Shown: in pieces, positions 7,332 through 20,573 of the stretch | Position numbering within the stretch: position 1 is the first letter of the stretch | How the letters are laid out: every line of letters starts with the position of its first letter | Source of the DNA: a virus | Virus record (IMG/VR): IMGVR_UViG_3300035633_000550 | Coordinates: 1-20,675 of that record | DNA length: 20,675 nucleotides | Direction: 5' to 3' (one strand) | Notes under the pieces: generated by a model | The model's database searches: none | The model's input: the letters and a program-made list of their open reading frames with translations, nothing else | Told to the model about the DNA's origin: nothing | Position numbers and translations under genes: made by a program

Positions 7332-9724
7332 TAGACTGTCAACCTCGCTTCAAAGAATGGCGACTCTCTACCAATCAGGTCCATTGCTTTGATCCTATAC
7401 ACATAGGTATTTCCAACTTGCAGATCTCTGTCAAAAAACTCAGGCTCTACATATGCTTCTCCGACAACCTCAAAGGTGTCGTTTTCAACATCAAATTTCC
7501 TCTCAATGATCCACCTATCTGGACGGGCTTTGTTACGCTCCGTAGTCCAAGTCAACCTCGAAACCAAAGGGCGAACCTTAGAGTTCAAAACTTCTGCCTT
7601 GAAGTTCACCGGGAACCCCAAATCTGGCAATGTGGAAATTTCAACCTCCTCTGTAAAGTTGCTTTCGTCATCTTGTGCAATCGCTGCAACCCTGTAATAG
7701 TAAATATCATTTTCGTTGAGAAATTCGGGCACACCAAAAGGACGAACGAAAGTTTCTTGTTTGAAATCACTGCTCACGTTGATGTCGCCCTCTGCTTCAA
7801 CAAAAATATCTTCTGTCTTCTTGGGCGAAAAAGCCACAGCATCTGGGGATGGGGTCTCGTCTATCACAAATTTGTTGACTGTCAACGGAAACGACTGGTA
7901 AACCGTCTCATTTCTCTTTCTGCGTTGAAGCTTGTACGTGAACTTTGATGGCTCCCTTAGAGCCTCGGCATCACCCTCAAAAAGCTCAGAAGCGCTGAAT
8001 TCTGTGGACAAGTTGTCGTCATCCCAGAGGATCTTGACCCTGAAGGGGCTTTGTCTCAACACCTTGGAACGGAGATTGACGGGAGAACGGATTGCCTTTT
8101 TGCCTGCCACTCTAATGATCGAAAGCTGATATGGGGTGGCATTACCGAACAAATCGAACCCTCTGACCCTATACTGATAGATGTGGTCAGGCTCAACTGT
8201 ATTATCGATAAACACAATTTCCTTTTCTTTTGCCACCTTGTTGAAGTAGTCTACACTTGTTAGCTCCTCGTTTTCCTTTCCTTCCAATATAGGATCCCTG
8301 TTACGATTCACAAAGAACTTGTTGCTTTTCCAGCCGTCTTCGCCACCTATTCCGCCAAAGCCTGTAAAAAGCTTCGAAGGCTTGTGGAAACTTCTCTCAT
8401 TAATGGTCAGGTCTCGCCTATCAAGCTCATAGTATCTCACCCGAGTATCGTTTGAAGACATAGTAATCTTGATGAAATCTGAGTTCTGGTCCTGTACGGT
8501 TGTCAAAATAGGGATTTTGAGATTGTTTGATCTGCTCTGGGGGGTAATCCTCTGAGCAGTCGAAGGAACCTCAATATCTACCGGCTCAGACAGAGTACCA
8601 TGAATGTTCTCTGCAAAAGCTCTGTATTCATACGACTTTCCAAAAACAACAGAGACATCTTCAAGAGTTACACAATCTGTAACGTTAGTGAACGCACCTG
8701 CTCTTCTGAAAGAAATCTCATCTTCCGACTTTCTGTACAACAAGACTCTGCCTATATCGTCTCGTGGGTCCAAACAAATTCTCAAATTGATACTGTTTTC
8801 AGTGCCTTGCGTAGCTGTAAAATTAGTAGGTGGGCGGATTGAGGTCAGATCATCAACCAAAATCCTGACGATGTTCGACCTGGGAGTCTCTTTTGCCTCT
8901 TCGGAAACTGAGGTGATGTAATACTCGAACACCTCTCCGTAGCCAACCTCTTTGTCTTTGAAGGAAATGTCAACAAACTCTCTCTCCTCCACAGAGACGA
9001 ACTTTTGCTGATCCCTCTTCAAGAACTGACTATATGAAACACTGCCTATCTTTTTGAATTTTCTAGCAAAAATAGCACGCTCAAACTCTCCGCCAACCTC
9101 TCTACTGAAATAATCAGCCTGTGGCGCAAACCTCGGCTTACCCCTGAACCCCAAGCCCGGCCTTCTGCGACTAGGCGGCAAAAAGTCTGTCCTAGACCTT
9201 TGCGTTGATTCAAGAGATTCGAGCCTGAAATTCAAAATGTCCTTAGGGATCAGGCTGCGGCGCATCTGATATAGGGCTTTCTTGTCTGGAGAGAATCGAC
9301 CTCTCCTGGGAATTTTGCGAGATATCCTGTCAAAAGCCCCTCTCGAAAACCTGCGAATCTTCTTTTTGTAGTCCCTGGTTTCCTTGAATATCTCCTCTCT
9401 CGTGAGCCTTCTGCGGTACACGTTAAAGGACGCAATTCCGCCAGAGTCCACAGCAAAGCGTGAAGTTCTCCAGTTCAGTTCGACATAAGGGTTGTCAACG
9501 CCATCCCTCAACAACTCTAGCAACATCAACTCTGGAGGAGACACCTTTCTCTGTGTGCCTACACGAGGGTCCTTGCCCAGGGTGAACACAGTAGATCTTA
9601 CATTGAGGGTTTGGGTGTCCTCTGGTTGCTCACGCTTGCGCTGCTCTTCGATCTGCTTATCTAGCTCTTCAAAGTCTAGATTTATGCTGACCTCTTTAGT
9701 TCTTCTGGTTCTTCTTCTGGTCAT
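7331..9724 (-). CDS. Multi-domain fibronectin type III-like virion protein, 797 aa
   Basis: Approximately five FN3-like units are visible, each with a 'Y.l.RR' strand and a closing 'Y.YRv.a.d..G' strand. Counted from the ATG chosen here they lie near residues 80-287 (FNVYRRRL ... EVFEYYITSVSEEA), 296-387 (VLLYRKSEDE ... KSYEYRAFAENIHGTLSEP), 402-542 (YYELDRRDL ... IYQYRVRGFDLFGNATP), 545-699 (YKLQRRKRNE ... IYYYRVAAIAQDDE) and 701-797 (WIIERKFDVE ... TYVYRIKAMDLIGRESP). The first unit is split by an arginine- and lysine-rich insertion (~109-202). No enzyme motif, signal peptide or membrane span is seen. It probably acts as a structural or binding appendage. I choose ATG at 9724, which overlaps the upstream TGA as ATGA; an in-frame TTG at 9733 would add three residues. 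The TAA overlaps the next ATG (TAATG). Confidence 0.85.
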   Translation of the reverse strand: MTRRRTRRTKEVSINLDFEELDKQIEEQRKREQPEDTQTLNVRSTVFTLGKDPRVGTQRKVSPPELMLLELLRDGVDNPYVELNWRTSRFAVDSGGIASFNVYRRRLTREEIFKETRDYKKKIRRFSRGAFDRISRKIPRRGRFSPDKKALYQMRRSLIPKDILNFRLESLESTQRSRTDFLPPSRRRPGLGFRGKPRFAPQADYFSREVGGEFERAIFARKFKKIGSVSYSQFLKRDQQKFVSVEEREFVDISFKDKEVGYGEVFEYYITSVSEEAKETPRSNIVRILVDDLTSIRPPTNFTATQGTENSINLRICLDPRDDIGRVLLYRKSEDEISFRRAGAFTNVTDCVTLEDVSVVFGKSYEYRAFAENIHGTLSEPVDIEVPSTAQRITPQSRSNNLKIPILTTVQDQNSDFIKITMSSNDTRVRYYELDRRDLTINERSFHKPSKLFTGFGGIGGEDGWKSNKFFVNRNRDPILEGKENEELTSVDYFNKVAKEKEIVFIDNTVEPDHIYQYRVRGFDLFGNATPYQLSIIRVAGKKAIRSPVNLRSKVLRQSPFRVKILWDDDNLSTEFSASELFEGDAEALREPSKFTYKLQRRKRNETVYQSFPLTVNKFVIDETPSPDAVAFSPKKTEDIFVEAEGDINVSSDFKQETFVRPFGVPEFLNENDIYYYRVAAIAQDDESNFTEEVEISTLPDLGFPVNFKAEVLNSKVRPLVSRLTWTTERNKARPDRWIIERKFDVENDTFEVVGEAYVEPEFFDRDLQVGNTYVYRIKAMDLIGRESPFFEARLTV

Positions 9725-10644
9725 TTCGTCCAAACCCTCAAGAACGATTCGAATCCATCTTGGAGGATTTCATCGCCTACCGGGTCCTCTACGTCCTGTT
9801 CCTGCAGCTTGACCAGCCTTCCGTCTGAGCCGCTCTCAAAAATCTCAATCAAAAACCCATCAGTTATTTCAGCCGGGCCTTCGCTTCCCTTAAGCTGCAA
9901 GGTAATAGTGGCTGAATCCAAGCCCGTGACAATTTCCATGTCTCTAGGAACACGAACAATTTTTCCTTCTTTTTCGACTGCCCTGTCGTTGTGAAGCTGG
10001 AGAGCTTGGTCTATTGTTGTAACCAGGCCAGTCGAGACGTTCAATGCAGAATTTCCTTTTAACGCAATGTAGTCCTTAGCTAAAGGCAAACCGACTATGT
10101 TCTCTCTTCTGTAGCGTTTGCGTACCGTTTGCTGAACTTGCTGATCGAGCCCATAATCTGACTGGCGCTCCTCTAGAGACTTCTTCTCAAGAGACGCCCT
10201 CAAAATGTAGGCCAAAGGGTACCTAAGCCTTCTGGACAAACGAGACCTGAAAGAAATTCTATTCAAGAAGTATGACCTTTTAAGTATAACGTTTGCTGCT
10301 CGACCCACTAATGCCGAACCCTCAATTGAAGTGTCTATGCTTGTCTTGAATTCCGGAACAACCTTACTCCTAGATGGAACTGTGAAAAGAAATGACTTGA
10401 GAGTGGTGTCATTGTATCGGTTGTCCGAAGTTCGTTGATTGGCCTCAAACGACAACCCTCGGTGGACATAATCGTCAAAAGATGAACTCTGAGCCAAGGA
10501 GGCACTCAAAGAGCCCGAGTAGTTCATTCCCTCGTCTGAGAATGCGTAAAATGAAAATTCAAGCAAATTCTTCGACAAAAGCTCTCTACCCTTGTCGGTG
10601 AGAACCACATCTAAAATTCTCTCTTTTTGGTTTAGAAACGCCAT
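9721..10644 (-). CDS. Phage structural protein with N-terminal 'LTDxGRE' domain, 307 aa
   Basis: The first ~43 residues (ILDVVLTDKGRELLSKN ... FSFYAFSDEGMNY) match the start of the 233-aa gene at 2343-3044 (DAVLTDVGREFLARN ... RFSLGDDEIDY), so the two are paralogues or share a domain. A second shared stretch lies near residues 257-283 (PAEITDGFLIEIFESG; the paralogue has PSEIVDGSFLVQVDND). Between them this copy carries a basic region (about 121-180; ISFRSRLSRRLRYPLAYI) missing from the paralogue. I have seen this N-terminal pattern in large-phage virion genes but know no established function. The ATG lies 18 bases after the fibre stop with only a weak ribosome-binding site, and the TGA overlaps the next ATG by four bases (ATGA). 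Confidence 0.82.
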   Translation of the reverse strand: MAFLNQKERILDVVLTDKGRELLSKNLLEFSFYAFSDEGMNYSGSLSASLAQSSSFDDYVHRGLSFEANQRTSDNRYNDTTLKSFLFTVPSRSKVVPEFKTSIDTSIEGSALVGRAANVILKRSYFLNRISFRSRLSRRLRYPLAYILRASLEKKSLEERQSDYGLDQQVQQTVRKRYRRENIVGLPLAKDYIALKGNSALNVSTGLVTTIDQALQLHNDRAVEKEGKIVRVPRDMEIVTGLDSATITLQLKGSEGPAEITDGFLIEIFESGSDGRLVKLQEQDVEDPVGDEILQDGFESFLRVWTK

Positions 10645-10662: not shown

Positions 10663-11817
10663 CTACGCTATTTTCCACATGCTGATTGTACTACCAGCAA
10701 GAGCAGCAAAAGTATTGCTTGTACCTTGGTACAAGATTTCAATATAGTGGGTCGCTGACAAATCAAGCATAAATATAATAGTATTTTCGTCCGGAGCTAC
10801 AATAGCATAAACAGCAACTCCAATCGCACTCCAGGTGTAGGGAGAACCCTCATTGTTTACTTGAATGTGGAAGTCGCCTATCGAAGGAGAGCCACCCGAA
10901 TCCATGATAAGGTTTGCCATAACCATGTAGGTTCCCGCAACAGGAACAGTAAAGCGACCAGTGCTATTGCTGTATGTGATTCCTTGGATCTTGTGTGTAG
11001 TTGTGGAGCCGCCCTGAAACACATTGGTTAAACTTGTAGAAAGGCTGTCGTTGCTGGTTTTTTCCACACAAACACGAGGGCAGTAAGGCAATGATACTAT
11101 TGAGTTAGAGTCCATGGTGAGACCCGCATTTCCACCTGCCCACATTTCCATGATAGAAGTAGCTTCAAGTTTCAAAAGGTCCCACTGATGAGCGTAGAGT
11201 ATGTATCCCGCCTGCTGATTGCCAGAGTCACCAAACATAACTGCACCGAATCCATCGGTAGTAGACAGAATAGTCATGCCAGAATCGTAATCAGATTCGG
11301 TTACTACGTTTCTATAAGCCGCCACTGAGGAAGTTGCGGTATCAACAGACTTGATGTGAAGCTGACCTAGTGGGGTACTTTCTGCAATACCGACATATCC
11401 GGTATCACCCTTGATGTACATTCTTTTGGTGGGGCCTGATGATCCGCCAGTCCAAGGGTCTTCAGCCGCAAAAGAAATATCTCCATTCAACAAACGAATG
11501 TAGGTGCCAGCCGAGCCAGTCGCAGCGACCCATGTGCCATTTACAAAATCTGCACCGCCGCACAGAATGAGGTCAGTAGGAGTGAAAGACCCAATGAAAC
11601 CGCCCTCATTCTCGTACTCGCCAATGTGAAGGCCCATGGTCTGCGTGTTGTCGCCATGAATCAGAGACAAAATTCTCTGATTGCCGCTTCTGTTGTTTTG
11701 ACCTCGAATTTTGAGTGGACCAGAGAGATTCCCCAGGACAGGTTGAACTCCTTCCTGATGAACAGCATTGATAGCTAAGGGCCTATTTCTCCTCTTAAAA
11801 GACACAAGTTTCGTCAA
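10663..11817 (-). CDS. Tail fibre protein with C-terminal C1q-like head, 384 aa
   Basis: Probable receptor-binding fibre. The middle contains a YVGIAESTPLGQLHI segment (about 141-155), matching the 'GNVGIGTTSP..LHV' signature common just before fibre heads. Residues ~250-384 look like a C1q/TNF-like trimeric beta head: TGRFTVPVAGTYMVMANLIM (about 286-305) and a final strand GSTISMWKIA. No S74 intramolecular chaperone follows. There is no ATG near the 5' end: the frame opens after a TAG, and only TTG at 11817 or GTG at 11805 (codon 5) can serve, with next ATG at residue 61. GGAGG at 11823-11819 is 1 base from the TTG and 13 bases from the GTG, so neither spacing is ideal. I keep the TTG. The 5' end lies inside the lipoprotein gene, suggesting coupled translation. 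The stop is TAG, followed by an 18-base gap. Confidence 0.82.
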   Translation of the reverse strand: MTKLVSFKRRNRPLAINAVHQEGVQPVLGNLSGPLKIRGQNNRSGNQRILSLIHGDNTQTMGLHIGEYENEGGFIGSFTPTDLILCGGADFVNGTWVAATGSAGTYIRLLNGDISFAAEDPWTGGSSGPTKRMYIKGDTGYVGIAESTPLGQLHIKSVDTATSSVAAYRNVVTESDYDSGMTILSTTDGFGAVMFGDSGNQQAGYILYAHQWDLLKLEATSIMEMWAGGNAGLTMDSNSIVSLPYCPRVCVEKTSNDSLSTSLTNVFQGGSTTTHKIQGITYSNSTGRFTVPVAGTYMVMANLIMDSGGSPSIGDFHIQVNNEGSPYTWSAIGVAVYAIVAPDENTIIFMLDLSATHYIEILYQGTSNTFAALAGSTISMWKIA

Positions 11818-12415
11818 GCCTCCGATACACTTCTTCTGCTACAGAGCCGTTTTCGTAACCAAACCACTTCGGAGGGTGCATTTCTTCTGTGCTATCCCCA
11901 AGCTCTAGTTGCCAATCCACCCCTTCTGAAAACAGCGCCAAAACGTGAATCATCTCATGACCTAGCGAAGACCGTTCGAGACAGAACGGCATATCATCAT
12001 GCCAAATTACATACACATTTATGTATTGCACATAAATATCATTGATTTGGGGATCTACAAGAGCTATTTCCGTCAATCCTCCAATGTTATAGCTCTCTCT
12101 GCCCTCTCTCTCAGCCATCCGTCGCTCAACCTCTAAAATGTATTCGGTCTTCTCTTTGAGAAAATACAAATTCACTTCTGTGGAAGCAAAACCCCAATGA
12201 ATCTCGCCCTCATAGGATGGATAGCGATCAGCAATAACATCGATGATCACCTGAGTGATTTCATCGACCTTCTCCTTTGTCACGGACTGGTTGTGTTCGT
12301 CCAAGAAGACACAGACCTCCCATTCAGTCGAGAAGTCACCACCGCAGTAATTGCTACGATAGCAGCCAACACCAAAGGCAAGAACGAAAGCGGCCAAAAG
12401 TAGAAGCTTTTTCAT
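11795..12415 (-). CDS. Putative HEXXH zinc-metallopeptidase lipoprotein, 206 aa
   Basis: The N-terminus is a typical export signal: MKK, a hydrophobic stretch LLLLAAFVLAF, then GVGC with Cys18 as the likely lipidation site (the -3 position is Gly, so the lipobox is imperfect). Residues 152-157 read GHEMIH, an HEXXH zinc-binding motif with His153, Glu154 and His157; His180 (TEEMHPP) or a downstream Glu could be the third ligand. Four further cysteines (24, 35, 145, 204) could form disulfides outside the cytoplasm. It is therefore probably a small membrane-anchored metallopeptidase, or a degenerate relative. That is unusual inside a run of virion genes. It could act on the host envelope or on superinfecting phage, but nothing in the sequence decides. 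The ATG overlaps the BNR gene's TAA, with AGAGGAA about 6 bases upstream. The 3' end overlaps the fibre gene by 23 bases if that gene starts at its TTG. Confidence 0.82.
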   Translation of the reverse strand: MKKLLLLAAFVLAFGVGCYRSNYCGGDFSTEWEVCVFLDEHNQSVTKEKVDEITQVIIDVIADRYPSYEGEIHWGFASTEVNLYFLKEKTEYILEVERRMAEREGRESYNIGGLTEIALVDPQINDIYVQYINVYVIWHDDMPFCLERSSLGHEMIHVLALFSEGVDWQLELGDSTEEMHPPKWFGYENGSVAEEVYRRLDETCVF

Positions 12416-14406
12416 TACGTTTCCTCTTCAGATTTGATTAATCGACCCCAAACAATGAGGTTCTTGTTCTTATCCTCAGTCTGACCCAACCTGTGACGAG
12501 CTGAAATTCGTAACTCTTTCACGTTAGTAAGAGGAATGTCAATTGGCCAACCAATCTCAAAGGTGCTCAAATTGCCATAGTCAATCTCTTTCGTGTGAAT
12601 CAAGTCTCTGTATGTAGCTATTGCTTCACTTCCTGAGGTAGTGTACTCAACAGCCTGATCCACAGCAAAGGGAGCGTCACGCAAAGGTCTACGCTCAACC
12701 CTCATGTCAACATTATCAAGGGTGCCGCTGATAGCCTTGGTCAAATACCCATACAACGTCAAATGATCAAATTCCGTAACATCGAAGAAACTTCCGGTTA
12801 TCCACTCTGTTGTGAGCTTTCCTGCCTTCTGGCCAGAAGAAAAGCTTCCAAAGCCCTGAACAAAGGTGTCTGCGTCTTTTGTTTGATTTGGCCACATGAT
12901 ATGAACAACAGAACCCAAATGAGAAACCTGAATAATACTGTCGTCATCATTTCCAACTTGACCAGAGTCTATGGTGCCCAAAATAATATTTGGCATCTGA
13001 AAAGCGCCGCCTGCATGAGAGAACTCGCTAACATTATTGAGCTTGAACCTCTCGACTACAGATCCTGAAAGCTCCTCCAAAACATAACCAAAAGAAGTGT
13101 TTATCATCGATGGACCAAGAGACTGTGAGTTTGCAGCAGCCTTGCCAGCCCTTATGGTAGCCCTGGCTCCATATCTTGTTCCTCCTATGAGTATTTCCTC
13201 TTTTGGAGTGACAATCATAGAAGCAGGGTAAGAGAGGTCGTCCCAAGCCTCAGAGGTGATTCGATTAAAAGTGACGCTCGAATCACCAGCGGAGATAGCT
13301 TCACACTTGTATGTTTGCCACCTCAAAGACGACTGGCCCAAATCTCTAGATCCCGAAGCTCCTGCCAACCACACTTCATATGGCTCGGGCGGAGAAATTG
13401 AACCTTTTACAGGGTTTATGCCTATAGATGTGTCTCCAAGAATACTGTAAAATCCTGGACCAAAAGGCGGATTGATGAAAGGAAAATCCGTCGATTGGAA
13501 GGTAAACCCCTGATTGGTTGAAAATATAACCGTATATGCAATGGAACTAGCAGTCGACTTGCCACCAAAAAATATTAATTCTGCGTCTGCATCACAAACC
13601 AAATTACGACCCAATTCTACGTTTTCCCCTTCTCTGTTTCCGTGATACACGTCATATATAGTGGACCAGGTGGTGCGCCCCGGAATAGTGTCACCAATGG
13701 ACCCTTGTGCTTCAAGTATGTTCCAGTAAGAATCAAAATTACTTTGCACGTCCTCCCAGCTTGCATAAACAGTTGGATAGTTGGTTGTGCCGCCACCGTA
13801 TGCCAAGGTGCCCGCCACCAAAGTAGCATCGCCAAGCGACCGCTGTTGAACACTGCTTGCCGAAAACCATGTGTCGCCACCATCCGAAGAGCTAAAAACT
13901 GCGACATATTCGTCACTACCGGCACCAGCCCACCAAACCAACGCATAAAGAGGTAGAGGATCTGGAACGTCGAACGGGAAGTTTTGAGTTTCCATGCAGA
14001 TAACGTCGCTAACATAAAAGTTATTGGAAGTGTTAACATAATCTACGATAACCTCCTCCCAATTTAGCCCTTCGTCTCTGCTCCTATACAAACCTCCATA
14101 ACCACTCTGAAAATTACCTCCTCCTGTAGCGACGAAAAGACCATTTTCATTTTGGCTTACAGCATAAAGCTGCCCCAAATTTTCACCAGGAAGCGGTGGA
14201 GGAGAGTTAATTTCTTTCAAACTAAAATCGTTGGGGTTCATCTTTAGAAGAACATTGCCGCCGCCGGAGCCATCGGGACCGACGATAGCATAATAATAGC
14301 CATCTCTGCCCTCATGAAGATATGAAATTGAACCAGTTACAATGTCAGACTTCCAATACTCTGCACGGTCAGCCCAACCGTAATAAGTTACATCTCTAAT
14401 TCCCAT
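12415..14406 (-). CDS. BNR/Asp-box repeat protein, probable beta-propeller tail appendage, 663 aa
   Basis: Three Asp-box-like motifs (S-x-D-x-G-x-T-W type) are visible: YRSRDEGLNWEEV near residues 107-119, FSSSDGGDTWFSAS near 171-184, and the degenerate FSTNQGFTFQST near 295-306. Between them lie typical blade strands such as LYAVSQNENGLFVATGGG and EYVAVFSSS. This is the sequence style of BNR proteins (sialidases, photosystem II assembly-factor-like proteins), which form propellers. The arginine triad and other catalytic residues of true sialidases are not evident, so a binding role is more likely than hydrolysis. Residues ~530-660 form a separate beta domain (EFDHLTLYGYLTKAISGT ... VKELRISARHRLG). 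No signal peptide is present. The start overlaps the upstream stop (TAATG) with AAGGTGG just before it; its stop overlaps the lipoprotein start in the same way. Confidence 0.83.
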   Translation of the reverse strand: MGIRDVTYYGWADRAEYWKSDIVTGSISYLHEGRDGYYYAIVGPDGSGGGNVLLKMNPNDFSLKEINSPPPLPGENLGQLYAVSQNENGLFVATGGGNFQSGYGGLYRSRDEGLNWEEVIVDYVNTSNNFYVSDVICMETQNFPFDVPDPLPLYALVWWAGAGSDEYVAVFSSSDGGDTWFSASSVQQRSLGDATLVAGTLAYGGGTTNYPTVYASWEDVQSNFDSYWNILEAQGSIGDTIPGRTTWSTIYDVYHGNREGENVELGRNLVCDADAELIFFGGKSTASSIAYTVIFSTNQGFTFQSTDFPFINPPFGPGFYSILGDTSIGINPVKGSISPPEPYEVWLAGASGSRDLGQSSLRWQTYKCEAISAGDSSVTFNRITSEAWDDLSYPASMIVTPKEEILIGGTRYGARATIRAGKAAANSQSLGPSMINTSFGYVLEELSGSVVERFKLNNVSEFSHAGGAFQMPNIILGTIDSGQVGNDDDSIIQVSHLGSVVHIMWPNQTKDADTFVQGFGSFSSGQKAGKLTTEWITGSFFDVTEFDHLTLYGYLTKAISGTLDNVDMRVERRPLRDAPFAVDQAVEYTTSGSEAIATYRDLIHTKEIDYGNLSTFEIGWPIDIPLTNVKELRISARHRLGQTEDKNKNLIVWGRLIKSEEET

Positions 14407-15194
14407 TATTCCACCTTACCAAAAACACTAGGATTCAAAAATTGAAAATCTATATTCTGATTATCAAGCTCTCTGAAGTAGTCAACACCACTGTCAGACA
14501 GCGGTTCTATAAAATCTACTCGGAAATTTCTAAATGACGCAGTTTGTATTGGACTGCCAAATAAGTCACCAAATTGCAAAGATATATACAAAGCATTTTC
14601 CCCAGTGGGCGTCTTAAGATTGAGAGGAAATGTAGTAGAATTTGACCCACTGGTCTGAGAAAATACAAATTCAACTTTTGCAAAACCATCATCAGTAAAC
14701 CCAAGCACCGACATTTTTGCCTGATCCGCATTAAACCCAACAGACCATGTGTGGTTGTAATAATCAAAATACTCCAAAGACAAACCAGAACCCCAAAGTG
14801 GTTCCGGACCCTGACCAAGGTCTTGAAGATACAGTGAGTTTGAAAGTTCATAACTCAACACGGCCAACTTCTTGACAGTGACCTCTTGTGCTCCGTTCAA
14901 GAAGTTGGCGTTCAAAAAATCTTCCTCTTGCTCTAAAAGAATATTATCTTCTGTCCACAAAGTTCCACTTATCCTATAAGTATACCCGTTACCATTGAAA
15001 AACGTTACAACTCCATCATCAGAACTAGAGGCATAATCATCTGATTCCCAGCCGTTACCGCCAGTACCACTTATGAACCTGACAGATAATCTCGTGTGCT
15101 TTTTGTATCCAGTGAAATAGTGCTCCTGATCCAAGGAAGAATCAGCATTCTTGATTACGAAACCATTTCCAAGTTTTGGATTTGAAATTGTCAT
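14406..15194 (-). CDS. Beta-rich phage structural protein of unknown function, 262 aa
   Basis: I do not recognise a named family. The protein is rich in aromatic and beta-branched residues with short polar turns (SGTGGNGWESDDYASSSDDG, GNGYTYRISGTLW), as in virion beta-sandwich proteins. Residues ~135-230 (LSLEYFDYYNHTWSVGFNAD ... ALYISLQFGDLFG ... ASFRNFRVDFIE) could be a carbohydrate-binding-like sandwich. There is no signal peptide or membrane segment. It starts one base after the LamG gene's stop (TAAGATG) with GAGGGG only 4 bases before the ATG, and its own TAA overlaps the ATG of the BNR-repeat gene. Tight coupling between two putative adhesion genes suggests an accessory tail component; this is inference. 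Confidence 0.82.
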   Translation of the reverse strand: MTISNPKLGNGFVIKNADSSLDQEHYFTGYKKHTRLSVRFISGTGGNGWESDDYASSSDDGVVTFFNGNGYTYRISGTLWTEDNILLEQEEDFLNANFLNGAQEVTVKKLAVLSYELSNSLYLQDLGQGPEPLWGSGLSLEYFDYYNHTWSVGFNADQAKMSVLGFTDDGFAKVEFVFSQTSGSNSTTFPLNLKTPTGENALYISLQFGDLFGSPIQTASFRNFRVDFIEPLSDSGVDYFRELDNQNIDFQFLNPSVFGKVE

Positions 15195-15195
15195 C

Positions 15196-18100
15196 TTACC
15201 CCTCGTTGTCTCTCTCTCTTCTCATAATTACTTCTCTGGCATATTCATTACGGAAGTTTACACCAGAGTTTGGATCGTTGATGTCAGTAGGTGTGTCTCC
15301 GGTGACCTTGCTTCTAGTGATATACACCAAATCTGCTGGTGGGTTGATTTGTTTCTCGTTCACTCCGTCCCAGAACAAAGAAGTAGGCGTTCCCGCAATC
15401 TTCTCTACATCCAGAGTAATAGGCGATTCAGGTGGAGACACGACCCTTCTCACGGTTACGTAGTTCTCTGTTCCTTTGAGAACAATCATCCCCACTTCCC
15501 ACGGATTGTCAGCATCATAGGTGACAGTTCCGTTGTGAGCAACATCTGGCTCGGTGAGTATCTTGTCATAGGCTCCGAAAAGATTGCCGCCGTCATTCCA
15601 CTCTTCCGCTTCTGTGTGGTTTCCAGGAATGATCTGTGTAGGGGCAACCTGACCGAGTGCGATCAAAATAGAAACACCAGTTTGAGAAGTAACGTTGGTA
15701 GTTCCCGTATCTGCAGCAGATCCGTAACCTGTAGCGCCTTCGGCCGGATAGTCAATGCCTTGTGAAGGGTCGACGCCAGAATATTCAAAAACACCAAATG
15801 ATTTATTGTTGAACTGATCGGCGTAAGTGGCCGTAATTGTTGAGCCAGCACCATCAGGAACATTCGTGGCAACCCAAATTTCTGTATCATCGCCAACAAA
15901 GAAGCCAGTCCAATTTGTCACCCCTGTTTGAGTGATGCCCGTAATTGACGTAGAACCCCCGTAAGACACAAGAACAAGAGTGTTTCCGGCAACTGGGGCT
16001 GTATCAAGTGTAACTGCAACGTCCGTAGTTGACTTCACCTCTCCTACGCCTTTGTACTGAACTCTGGCCGGAGTGGCTACACTTTCCAAAAAAACCTCTT
16101 CGGTAAGAACAAGAGAAGATCTGCCCTCTGAACTTGCGTTTTTGAGGGTTCCAGGTGGTGAGTTTGGAATGGTCACCATCTTGTCACCCTCCATCACCGA
16201 AACAGAATCGCCTGGGTCTGAGAACAAACCGAACGAAGCGCTTGGATAGCCCTTGTAGAGGGGGTCAGCATCTCTCAACCCTTCTGCGTAAGTGCCACGC
16301 ACATCAGCCTCAGGCGGGTCCTGAGGGGTTCTAAAGATTGGGTACTTGTACCCATACTTCGAACGCTCTAGGAAGTGGCTCTCGACCACCTGCTCGCCAC
16401 CTACGAACTTGACCCTGGCTGGTAGAAGCTGCTTGATTGAGTCACTGAGCTTCCTGTCAAACCACTTGAAAAGCTTGAAGAACTGAGTGAAGTGGATGCT
16501 GTCGCCCAGCCTCTCAAAGTATTCCCGACGAATCGCCTCAAGGTCTGCATACTCGTCTCGATACTTGTTGACAGGCTTGCCGATGACATTGTTGACAATA
16601 TCGAAAGTAGAGAAAATCTTAGTGATATCCTCGTTTAGAGACTCAACCAGGTTAAACTCCAACGAAACTTCGTTGGTGTCTGAGGCTACGTCATCGATAG
16701 TAAGCTCCGACTTATTGCGAATACGAATTTTGTTTTCTGACCACTTTAGATCAATCGATGGACTCAGGTAGTTATAATCCAAGAGGAATTTGTCATATGG
16801 GGTGGCCGACTGACCAAAGTAGTTTCCGAAACCATTCCTGCCGTTTCTTGACAGGTCAGTAACTCCGCTAAAGAAACCAAATCCTGACGCTGATGCGGTC
16901 TTATCTTCGTTCAAAGCCCAATGCAAATACAGAGGATATGGCTCTTCTTGTGGGTCTTCAATTCCTACGCTCTCAAAGTGGAGTGCATGATCTTCTGTCT
17001 CTGACGCAGAAAGTGCCCTGGTCCAGTGCCTAAACTCTCCATAATATCCCTGAGTTCCACGAATTGGAGCATACGGCCCACGGCCCACACAAGCTTGCCA
17101 GAAAGATGAGCCAGTGCCCGCAATAACAAACGGATCAGATGAGCTAAACTGTAAGTCTACATCAAGCTCATCTGTATCGAGTCTTCTTATATTCAAGAAC
17201 GCTTGACGATCAGGCACAGAGCCTGTTCTGACTCCGAAAGATAGGTGATATCTGCTGCCGTCAAAATCAACAAGGCTGCTGGTCAAAACACTATCGCTGG
17301 AACTCAGATAGAACCTTCCTTGAGATGAATCTAGGCTGTCCCTTGTCCATCCCAAAAATACGAAATTGAGCGTATTTCTCCAAAGCCCACACACCTCTCC
17401 TTCAGTTAGGTGCTGCGTATAGCTTGCGCTCGCATATGGAGGTTGGTACAAAACCTCTGTGGTAAAAGGAGCCTCCAGCGTAAAAGTAGACCAAGCAACA
17501 GATCCCGTAAGAGAGATCACCTCTCCTGTTCCAATACCAAGCTGCGACACAACTTTCTGCTTGTGTAGCCTCGTATCCTGAATCGATGTGCCCGGAAGAT
17601 AGCCATATTCCTTCAGGGTAATATTTTCACGATTGATTCCCAGCGTATTGAAGAACGCATCGAGGTTGTGTCTCTTGCCCTTTGTTTTGAGCAGATACGG
17701 CAAGTTACTGAGAACTCTTCGCCAAAACTGATTCTTGATGTCAATCAAAGGAACCTCAAGACTACCAGAAGCTAGCACGTCCTCGCCAAAGAACAACGCC
17801 ATAGGATTGGCATCACCGAAGTGTTCAGTGACTTTCCAGCCAAAATACCTCTGCAATAGAGGCAGCATCTGGTCTGGTACGTCATTGTAGCCGTCGTAAT
17901 TGGTAATCCTAAGGTTGCCAAACTGATCGATGTACAGCTTCAACTCATCGAAAAATCTAGACATTCCGTACAGAAGCGAACGATACAAACCTTCTGCGTT
18001 GTCGTCCTCACGCAGAACCGTCTCAGGAATCATGTTGAAAATTTGATTGTTGTTGTCGTTGTCGTATAAAGCGCCAGAAAGTTCTTGACTGCCGGTAAAT

Positions 18101-19194
18101 GCCGAAACTCTTGGGTGAAAACTGTAAAGAATAGGATCACCAGGGTCTACATCCATCGTAGAGCCAGAAACTCTACTGAAATCAACGGTATAGTTGTTGT
18201 ATCTTCCGTGGATACCAGAATTCGAATAATCAACAACCAAACTATCGAGCGAACTTGAACCAAACACACCCTCGTTGAAACTGTACCTCAGTTTGAGGTA
18301 GTCTTCCGAGTCGATTGGCCGATTGTAATTTTTGTTGTGCCAACGAGCACTTGCCGTGTGAGCAACACGAACTTCATCAATAGAGCCAGAATAAAATTCT
18401 GTACTAGAAATGGTGCCGCTGCCGACAAGAAACTTCGAAGATCTGAACTCGATTGGACCTGTAATATCGTTGGCTATTTCTGCCTCGGCAACCCTTTGAG
18501 TGTTGACATACAAAGAAGCACTCCCTTCCACCAAGTCATACAAAACAGCCACATTGTGGAAAGATCCTGTGACATCACCATATCCATCCCAACTCAAATC
18601 AATCAGATCAGTTCCAGAGTAGATTACAGCGCCTACCTCAACTGGCGTATTATCATGCACATACAGGAGATACCCAAAGAAATCCGCTCCAGATCGAGAC
18701 AAGTGTTGACAAATAACCCTTGGGCTGGAGTCTACAAATGGATTTACCTGTGCCGATACATAGAAAGAAGAGGACCCTGGCATGAGCTTGTTGCTTGGGT
18801 CGGAGGCTGAAATGTAATGAGAGGTTCCGTCAAACTCTGCATATCCCACCTCTCTTGGCCATTGGTTAAAAACCCAGTCTTCGTAATCAGAGCCGGTTAG
18901 ATGGAACGCATCCTTCTCTTCACGGCTGCCATTGAAAGGATACTGATTTAGAATTCTGTGTTTGGCAACGCCAAACTTAGAGACAGCAGAATCGAAAAAG
19001 ACATGGTTAGCGTAGTCAGAGTAGTCTACCCTTAGGCTGGTTTCAATACGCTTTTCGGCCTCTCGCTTGATGCGCTCTCTCTCTTCAATGAAGTCTCCTA
19101 GGTCATCGAAAGCAAGGGCTGTCGTCGTAGGAAGATTCGTATCTTTCTTCTGGTTCTCGGGGAATACCAGACTGAAACCTTTCTTTTCTGCCAT
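15196..19194 (-). CDS. Large tail/baseplate protein with two LamG-like domains and a conserved tail-protein core, 1332 aa
   Basis: Longest gene of the window. Residues ~115-300 form a LamG/concanavalin-like sandwich (VGYAEFDGTSHYISA, SASLYVNTQRVAEAEI, SGSIDEVRVAHTASARWHN). Residues ~400-545 resemble a segment common in large-phage tail proteins (YGMSRFFDELKLYIDQFGN, LPYLLKTKGKRHNLDAFFNT, GINRENITLKEYG), reminiscent of the P2 gpI type but not proven. Residues ~560-745 form a second LamG-like domain ending in GEFRHWTRALSASE. Residues ~903-952 hold another conserved stretch (LLPARVKFVGG..VESHFLERSKYGYKYP). Residues ~1045-1245 are a separate beta domain (VAVTLDTAPVAGNTLVLVS) before a short charged tail. 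It probably forms part of the baseplate or a tail spike base, with the LamG domains exposed. The ATG overlaps the upstream TAA (TAATG); an AAGG lies about 7 bases before it. No enzyme motif is visible. Confidence 0.88.
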   Translation of the reverse strand: MAEKKGFSLVFPENQKKDTNLPTTTALAFDDLGDFIEERERIKREAEKRIETSLRVDYSDYANHVFFDSAVSKFGVAKHRILNQYPFNGSREEKDAFHLTGSDYEDWVFNQWPREVGYAEFDGTSHYISASDPSNKLMPGSSSFYVSAQVNPFVDSSPRVICQHLSRSGADFFGYLLYVHDNTPVEVGAVIYSGTDLIDLSWDGYGDVTGSFHNVAVLYDLVEGSASLYVNTQRVAEAEIANDITGPIEFRSSKFLVGSGTISSTEFYSGSIDEVRVAHTASARWHNKNYNRPIDSEDYLKLRYSFNEGVFGSSSLDSLVVDYSNSGIHGRYNNYTVDFSRVSGSTMDVDPGDPILYSFHPRVSAFTGSQELSGALYDNDNNNQIFNMIPETVLREDDNAEGLYRSLLYGMSRFFDELKLYIDQFGNLRITNYDGYNDVPDQMLPLLQRYFGWKVTEHFGDANPMALFFGEDVLASGSLEVPLIDIKNQFWRRVLSNLPYLLKTKGKRHNLDAFFNTLGINRENITLKEYGYLPGTSIQDTRLHKQKVVSQLGIGTGEVISLTGSVAWSTFTLEAPFTTEVLYQPPYASASYTQHLTEGEVCGLWRNTLNFVFLGWTRDSLDSSQGRFYLSSSDSVLTSSLVDFDGSRYHLSFGVRTGSVPDRQAFLNIRRLDTDELDVDLQFSSSDPFVIAGTGSSFWQACVGRGPYAPIRGTQGYYGEFRHWTRALSASETEDHALHFESVGIEDPQEEPYPLYLHWALNEDKTASASGFGFFSGVTDLSRNGRNGFGNYFGQSATPYDKFLLDYNYLSPSIDLKWSENKIRIRNKSELTIDDVASDTNEVSLEFNLVESLNEDITKIFSTFDIVNNVIGKPVNKYRDEYADLEAIRREYFERLGDSIHFTQFFKLFKWFDRKLSDSIKQLLPARVKFVGGEQVVESHFLERSKYGYKYPIFRTPQDPPEADVRGTYAEGLRDADPLYKGYPSASFGLFSDPGDSVSVMEGDKMVTIPNSPPGTLKNASSEGRSSLVLTEEVFLESVATPARVQYKGVGEVKSTTDVAVTLDTAPVAGNTLVLVSYGGSTSITGITQTGVTNWTGFFVGDDTEIWVATNVPDGAGSTITATYADQFNNKSFGVFEYSGVDPSQGIDYPAEGATGYGSAADTGTTNVTSQTGVSILIALGQVAPTQIIPGNHTEAEEWNDGGNLFGAYDKILTEPDVAHNGTVTYDADNPWEVGMIVLKGTENYVTVRRVVSPPESPITLDVEKIAGTPTSLFWDGVNEKQINPPADLVYITRSKVTGDTPTDINDPNSGVNFRNEYAREVIMRRERDNEG

Positions 19195-20573
19195 TACACT
19201 ACCTTGAACACAAAGCCATCATCAATGATTTTCTTGTCGTACCTGTTGATGTCAATCAGGAAAAGAAGCCTGTACGTAAATCCTGGGACAAAACTGCTCA
19301 GCCACATGTTGAAGTAGTTTCCATCTGAGTTGTAAGACAACTGAGTGTGGGCTGCTGACCCCGTTCCGAACGGAACAATCATGTCTCCAGTTTCGTTATT
19401 CATCACGCCATAGTACATCTTCTCGATGCACTCTTTGTCAATCTCTAGGGACGCACTAGGCATCACGCCAACGTGTGTAATCCAATCACGCTTTCTCACA
19501 TGAACCTTGAGTCGAGCCTCTTCGTTTACGTTGTAAACACGCTTGAGGTTGGTCACGTCCACGTCGAACTCATCATACTGGTCAACCTGAGAGCCTGTCA
19601 ACACTAAAGGAGTAAAGGCTCCCGTCATATAGGTTCTTGAACCTGAGAACCATACATCGATCCAGCTAGCCGAAAAGCTTGCTGTATTCTCGATGTTGAT
19701 AGATGCCGAGTAAATTCCAGTGCTTACCTTGCCTGCCGTGAACTCTTCTGAATATGATGCGGAAACTCCGATCACGTTGTCCTGAATCCTCACAGTTACA
19801 GGCTCTGTCAAGTCCACCAACTCGCCTCTCACAAAGTTGTAAAGAAGCAGGTTACTGTCGTTGTCGAAAGCAAAATTGTGACGATGATCTTTCACCACAC
19901 TATTCCACCTGGCCTCGATGTATGGCAGCTTTTCAACAAACAAACTTTCTCTGCCGTGGAAAACCTTACGGAAGTAGCGTGCAGAGGAATTCTCTTCTGT
20001 GTCGCCCATTTTGAGGACGAGACCATTATTGCCAAACGTGCCAGTAAGCCAGTTCATGACCAAATCAGTCACGTCCATCTCTAGGTCTTCGTTGCCATCA
20101 TCGAAATGCTGAGAGCCGCTGCCCTCATCTGCCAGATAATCAGAGCCAGTGGTCACCCAATCTGCAGTAGATACGGGTTGTAGCCAGTTTGCTACACCGC
20201 CATCTCTGTCCAGGTCGTCATCGATTCCGACGCCCTCGTCCCAACTCCTCGAAAGAGGGAACGCAAACAAGTCATAGCTAGTCGGAACAGTATCGCCGTG
20301 CCTTTCGTCAAACATTTTCAAGACATACGTGACACCTGAGGATGGGATCATTCCCTCTCCGTAAATCTTACCGGAAAGCTCTGTCATGTCGAACTGCATG
20401 AGAATTCTGGCAAGATCCTGCGTCTCTGGATTCTGGTCCGGAGGGAAAGCGAATACGTTGAGAGAAGGAGAGCGGCCATGGTTACTGCCAGTGGCACGCA
20501 CGCTAGTTGACGTACCGATTAATCTATTAGTAATCCACGTATCTTTCGAGGGAAATATTCTGAAAACAGCCAT
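19194..20573 (-). CDS. DNRLRE-like beta-sandwich virion protein, 459 aa
   Basis: Probable virion surface or tail-appendage protein. The N-terminal ~225 residues have the pattern of DNRLRE/CBM-like domains: an opening FPSKDTWIT, then 'ARILMQFDMTEL' (about 56-67), a tryptophan/acidic segment 'SRSWDEGVGIDDD' (about 108-120), paired 'W' positions near NWLQP and ADWVTTGSD, and 'DVTDLVMNWLTGTFGNNGL' (about 167-185). In that family these mark a jelly-roll on secreted or surface proteins. Residues ~245-459 look like further beta domains (EPVTVRIQD..., GIYSASINIE). No catalytic motif, signal peptide or membrane segment is visible. The ATG overlaps the previous stop by one base and has an AGAGGG ribosome-binding site about 8 bases upstream; its TAA overlaps the ATG of the LamG gene. 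The fold assignment is by pattern, and the role in the particle is inferred from context. Confidence 0.85.
   Translation of the reverse strand: MAVFRIFPSKDTWITNRLIGTSTSVRATGSNHGRSPSLNVFAFPPDQNPETQDLARILMQFDMTELSGKIYGEGMIPSSGVTYVLKMFDERHGDTVPTSYDLFAFPLSRSWDEGVGIDDDLDRDGGVANWLQPVSTADWVTTGSDYLADEGSGSQHFDDGNEDLEMDVTDLVMNWLTGTFGNNGLVLKMGDTEENSSARYFRKVFHGRESLFVEKLPYIEARWNSVVKDHRHNFAFDNDSNLLLYNFVRGELVDLTEPVTVRIQDNVIGVSASYSEEFTAGKVSTGIYSASINIENTASFSASWIDVWFSGSRTYMTGAFTPLVLTGSQVDQYDEFDVDVTNLKRVYNVNEEARLKVHVRKRDWITHVGVMPSASLEIDKECIEKMYYGVMNNETGDMIVPFGTGSAAHTQLSYNSDGNYFNMWLSSFVPGFTYRLLFLIDINRYDKKIIDDGFVFKVV

Follow-up and report, generated by a model that had tools for sequence, protein, structure and literature searches.

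A predicted phage lipoprotein with a conserved HEXXH motif encoded among putative adhesin genes

Introduction

What might an exported protein with a zincin-type motif do for a tailed phage that encodes it beside its tail genes? The question is raised by a 206 aa open reading frame (ORF) in a 20,675-base IMG/VR virus record, which was analysed as a whole and is referred to here as the window. An earlier note on this DNA, made from the sequence alone, had described a lipoprotein gene in a virion structural operon and had held that the product fits none of the known kinds of phage lipoprotein neatly. This was overstated, as T5 and small coliphages encode exclusion lipoproteins next to receptor-binding genes. 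The T5 llp gene is adjacent to and downstream of the gene for the receptor-binding protein pb5, and Llp jams FhuA (PMC9586334). Small coliphages carry superinfection-exclusion factors in their receptor-binding locus (PMC11990801). The unusual features of the locus described here are the HEXXH motif and the length of the protein; a lipoprotein as such is not. Below, we describe the gene and its neighbourhood, the predicted export signal, the motif and its conservation, and the role that these features suggest.

The Gene and Its Operon

All major genes of the window are on the minus strand, and their ends overlap or nearly touch. A 459 aa gene and a 1332 aa gene are followed by a four-gene cassette (262 aa, 663 aa, the lipoprotein, and 384 aa) and then by a conserved 307 aa gene. 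In the list below, L005 and L013 denote loci of the related record IMGVR_UViG_3300009678_000121.

19194..20573, minus strand: backbone virion protein, 459 aa; directly behind a baseplate wedge gene in relatives
15196..19194, minus strand: large virion protein of the conserved backbone, 1332 aa; related proteins occur in phages and IMG/VR
14406..15194, minus strand: adhesin-cassette gene, 262 aa; partial match to L013:12058-14085
12415..14406, minus strand: BNR/Asp-box protein, 663 aa, with three Asp boxes; upstream of the lipoprotein gene, 1 nt overlap
11795..12415, minus strand: HEXXH lipoprotein gene, ORF of 206 aa; syntenic orthologue at L005:721-1257
10663..11817, minus strand: fibre-type protein, 384 aa; downstream of the lipoprotein gene and overlapping it
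9721..10644, minus strand: backbone gene (MAFLNQKE...), 307 aa; bounds the variable cassette on its downstream side

The earlier note did not state the strand of the lipoprotein ORF. When the ORF was re-read from the minus strand, the gene, Cys18, the HEMIH motif at residues 153-157, and four additional cysteines were all recovered as claimed. The cysteines are residues 18, 24, 35, 145, and 204, and a histidine is found at residue 180. The stop/start coupling of the gene to a BNR-repeat gene and a fibre gene is also as described. Its start codon overlaps the stop codon of the upstream BNR-type gene by 1 nt (TAATG), and the downstream fibre ORF begins within its 3' end. Codon-usage log-odds did not clearly separate the gene from antisense frames; that it is coding is indicated by the orthologue. 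A promoter scan returned sites no more numerous than in shuffled sequences.

The operon is preceded by baseplate genes in several relatives. In L020, a 7.6 kb contig identical to the window over the shared genes, a baseplate wedge gene precedes the operon (phrog_219, E = 9e-19), and the nearest relative has gp25-type and gp6-type wedge genes ahead of it. Flavobacterium phage Immuto and Microcystis phage Mel-JY01 share this backbone; upstream of it, baseplate genes are either annotated or can be recognised. Three more distant relatives (L003, L004, and L009) lack the cassette, and next after their large protein comes the counterpart of the 307 aa gene. L006, L007, and L011 end at or before the cassette site and are uninformative on its presence. 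In L005/L013, the cassette runs from an Asp-box protein through the orthologue to a tail fibre, and the gene at the fibre position carries an S74 chaperone domain of tail-fibre families. The Asp-box and fibre-type genes flank the lipoprotein gene, and their products may include the receptor binder. We place the lipoprotein gene in the host-recognition (adhesin) cassette of a tailed phage, a myovirus with a T4-type baseplate.

Two further features of the cassette were observed. The C-terminal ~250 aa of the Asp-box protein are 57% identical to the product of L013:14085-16118 while its N-terminal part is nearly unalignable, so that it resembles an adhesin whose recognition domain can be swapped. 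The cassette gene at 14406-15194 has a G+C content of 0.39 and a GC3 of 0.35, both much below those of its neighbours.

Export Signal and Cysteines

The N-terminus of the protein comprises the following predicted features.

12365..12415, minus strand: predicted signal peptide, residues 1-17 (MKKLLLLAAFVLAFGVG); passes the PROSITE-type lipobox rule
12362..12364, minus strand: Cys18, the predicted site of lipidation, followed by Tyr at +2; Cys17 of the orthologue is in the same alignment column

Ahead of Cys18 are two lysines and a hydrophobic core without charged residues. Lipoproteins were recognised by a PROSITE PS51257-type rule that asks for Lys/Arg in the n-region, a hydrophobic core, and a lipobox Cys at positions 15-35. 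Cys18 satisfies this rule, in agreement with the signal peptide and lipidation site proposed earlier and with a Sec/lipobox-type N-terminus. No other protein among the 14 of the window does so, and across the loci to which the rule was applied it is passed by 7 of the 695 ORFs with 100 aa or more. The lipobox of the orthologue is non-canonical, with a Cys at -3; it fails the strict rule and passes a relaxed one only. Cysteine makes up 2.4% of the window protein versus 0.29% of the other 13 window proteins, an enrichment of ~8x (Fisher P = 0.0007) that fits an oxidising compartment and folding outside the cytoplasm. From its N-terminus, the product of 11795-12415 is probably exported and lipidated.

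Distant relatives encode other predicted lipoproteins, all free of HEXXH, within or close to their baseplate operons (L015:245-898, L026:7313-7768, and L008:9706-10065). Lipoproteins may be a recurrent cargo of such operons.

A Distant Orthologue and the HEXXH Motif

One distant orthologue of 178 aa is found at the same cassette position in IMGVR_UViG_3300009678_000121. The two proteins are 24-31% identical (BLASTP E = 1e-7). Their mature regions align with a score of 91, against a shuffle mean of 32 (sd 5.3), and none of 20,000 shuffles reaches 91. The orthologue keeps the lipobox Cys, Cys24, Cys35, D-F-x-T, C-V-F, R-Y-P, HEM[IL]HV, S...EVYRRL, and a C-terminal Cys. Homologues lacking either the lipobox cysteine or the HEXXH residues had been named earlier as evidence against the proposed peptidase; the one homologue retains both. 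Between the two phages, most backbone genes show 46-77% identity, with two lower values of 43% and 32%. Compared with these, the lipoprotein changes like the host-facing genes while its motif is retained. Further homologues were not found in viral_contigs (queried with the window protein, the orthologue, and their alignment), in genome_contigs (queried with the orthologue and the alignment), or in the phage and plasmid collections, and a profile search of 19 related records returned no additional member.

The following residues bear on putative zinc binding.

11945..11959, minus strand: HEMIH, residues 153-157, zincin-type motif; HEMLH in the orthologue
11876..11878, minus strand: His180, candidate third zinc ligand; the orthologue residue paired with it varies with the alignment
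11816..11833, minus strand: EVYRRL, residues 195-200, identical in the orthologue; helix predicted at 192-203 with low confidence

Among the window ORFs of at least 60 aa, the lipoprotein is the only one with HEXXH. The motif arises in 2.2% of composition-shuffled copies of the mature protein, so that by itself it says little. Its retention as HEMIH and HEMLH in two proteins so far diverged argues for more than chance, and, with a single orthologue in the searched collections, selection on it is read from two sequences. Glu195, which lies within EVYRRL and 38 residues past the second His, could be a conserved gluzincin-type third ligand. His180 pairs with no histidine of the orthologue in the best-scoring alignment. 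The best alignment scores 54, against 26 for a one-gap alternative, and forcing His180 onto His149 of the orthologue lowers the score. The protein reads HEMIHVLALFS at the motif, which departs from the metzincin pattern HEXXHxxGxxH.

Family and Fold Searches

The lipoprotein has no meaningful match in Pfam, NCBIfam, or PDB sequences, and no PHROG scores below E = 0.19; the match at that value, phrog_3541, was taken as chance. Profile searches against peptidase families, which had been suggested as a check, returned none above cut-off. The description of the product as a secreted, membrane-anchored peptidase is therefore upheld in part. It appears to be exported and probably lipidated, its HEXXH is conserved, and its gene is part of a virion/adhesin operon, but no peptidase family claims it.

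The nearest approach to a known family is to the SprT-like proteins (PF10263). The orthologue matches PF10263 with E = 0.0099 and 16.2 bits, which is below the curated cut-off of 25.6, and the window protein does not match it. Membership was tested with seven SprT sequences, namely E. coli SprT (used as a probe) and six phage proteins taken from records, and a profile was built from SprT proteins. In a profile comparison with hhalign, 15-16 columns around the HEXXH helix were aligned with a probability of 11%, and the G-x-A strand and the H-x-x-x-W site were unmatched there. Because the score is sub-threshold and the alignment is confined to the HEXXH helix, membership was dropped and the lipoprotein is not filed as SprT. 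SprT is a cytoplasmic protein, whereas the window protein is predicted to be exported. HEXXH is also common to the gluzincins and metzincins. Here, Glu195 is a candidate ligand of the gluzincin type, no profile of these groups matched, and the metzincin signature is absent. AlphaFold models computed from one and two sequences reached pLDDT values of 51 and 40, too poor to place a third zinc ligand. Foldseek with the pLDDT 51 model returned nothing at E <= 0.001, and this model is too poor for interpretation.

Proposed Role and Alternatives

Taken together, we tentatively propose that the gene product is a secreted zincin-like protein, stabilised by disulfides and probably anchored by a lipid, which most likely inactivates the receptor of the neighbouring adhesins in the infected cell's envelope (probability about 0.38). 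The protein would be made together with the tail genes and exported by the Sec and lipoprotein pathways of the host; acting in the envelope, it may then modify the surface of the infected cell. The receptor would be inactivated by cleavage or by binding through the zincin fold. Loss of the receptor would spare released progeny from adsorbing to infected cells and debris, a form of superinfection exclusion. The receptor, or its envelope surroundings, is favoured as the target because the locus is of the kind in which exclusion lipoproteins are encoded and because the protein diverges along with the adhesins. The operon position counts against this reading, as it suggests late expression whereas T5 Llp is early; so do the lack of a peptidase-family match above cut-off and the non-canonical lipobox of the orthologue.

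The main rival is a receptor blocker that resembles T5 Llp or Cor of the T1-like phages in function only. It would bind the receptor from the membrane, and its HEXXH would be a structural remnant or would only bind metal. All of these are phage-encoded lipoproteins (a predicted one in the present case) beside host-recognition-type genes. The lipobox and the position next to receptor-type genes match the known superinfection-exclusion lipoproteins, no peptidase family was matched, and the third zinc ligand is a candidate only. The window protein differs in its 206 aa, its conserved HEXXH, its cysteine-rich ectodomain, and its tail-operon position. Known Llp and Cor proteins are shorter, which counts against such a blocker. 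A tblastn search of 50,697 phage records returned no significant match that would relate it to them, and no PHROG scored above chance. The choice between cleavage and binding turns on the motif: HEMxHV, a HEXXH in hydrophobic context, is kept exactly in the orthologue and favours a zincin. We regard a purely binding blocker as unlikely, though the one to be taken most seriously among the alternatives.

A more specific form of the proposed receptor inactivation is quite doubtful on present evidence. Here, the protein would be a membrane-anchored zinc metallopeptidase, exchanged along with the cassette adhesins, that destroys the phage's own receptor. Such enzymatic superinfection exclusion would be the protein counterpart of receptor-destroying enzymes. 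The known superinfection-exclusion lipoproteins of phages jam receptors by binding. If the conserved HEXXH acts in this place, some tailed phages would inactivate receptors proteolytically, and the choice of adhesin would be tied to a matching receptor-destroying enzyme within one cassette. Even without catalysis, the two orthologues would make up a small family of exported phage proteins, new and indicative of a host-range cassette. A limited literature search found no phage-encoded peptidase lipoprotein of this kind. A secreted metalloprotease linked to a lipoprotein is known from a Listeria pair of phage origin, a metzincin and a TIMP-like lipoprotein; there, protease and lipoprotein are two separate proteins, and the window protein does not have the metzincin motif (PMC8235301).

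Other roles fit the data less well. A late envelope or lysis lipoprotein, acting as an accessory peptidase to weaken the periplasm or outer membrane and leaving the receptor alone, would be compatible with a product that is rich in cysteine, exported, and probably anchored in the membrane, and whose gene accompanies virion genes. This is improbable, as the gene is part of an adhesin cassette and evolves with the adhesins, and no lysis gene was recognised next to it in the window. The lipoprotein was also not found in most of the related records (many of which are fragments), though lysis functions are general. A virion-borne tail peptidase acting on the host envelope at entry would fit the overlap of the reading frame with those of tail genes behind a baseplate operon. 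It is decidedly improbable, as the signal peptide and lipobox would remove the product from the cytoplasm, the site of tail assembly. The trimming of neighbouring appendages suggested in the earlier note, by a processing protease for the adjacent fibre or BNR proteins, has gene adjacency in its favour and is very improbable indeed, because the lipoprotein would be exported away from tails that assemble in the cytoplasm, and because the adjacent fibre of the relative has its own S74 chaperone domain, of a family that releases itself by autocleavage.

GIY-YIG/NUMOD3 homing endonuclease genes are located at both ends of the operon, at positions 1-417 of the window (minus strand) and at L020:4315-4995. 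The latter is an insertion that separates the baseplate wedge gene from the 459 aa gene.
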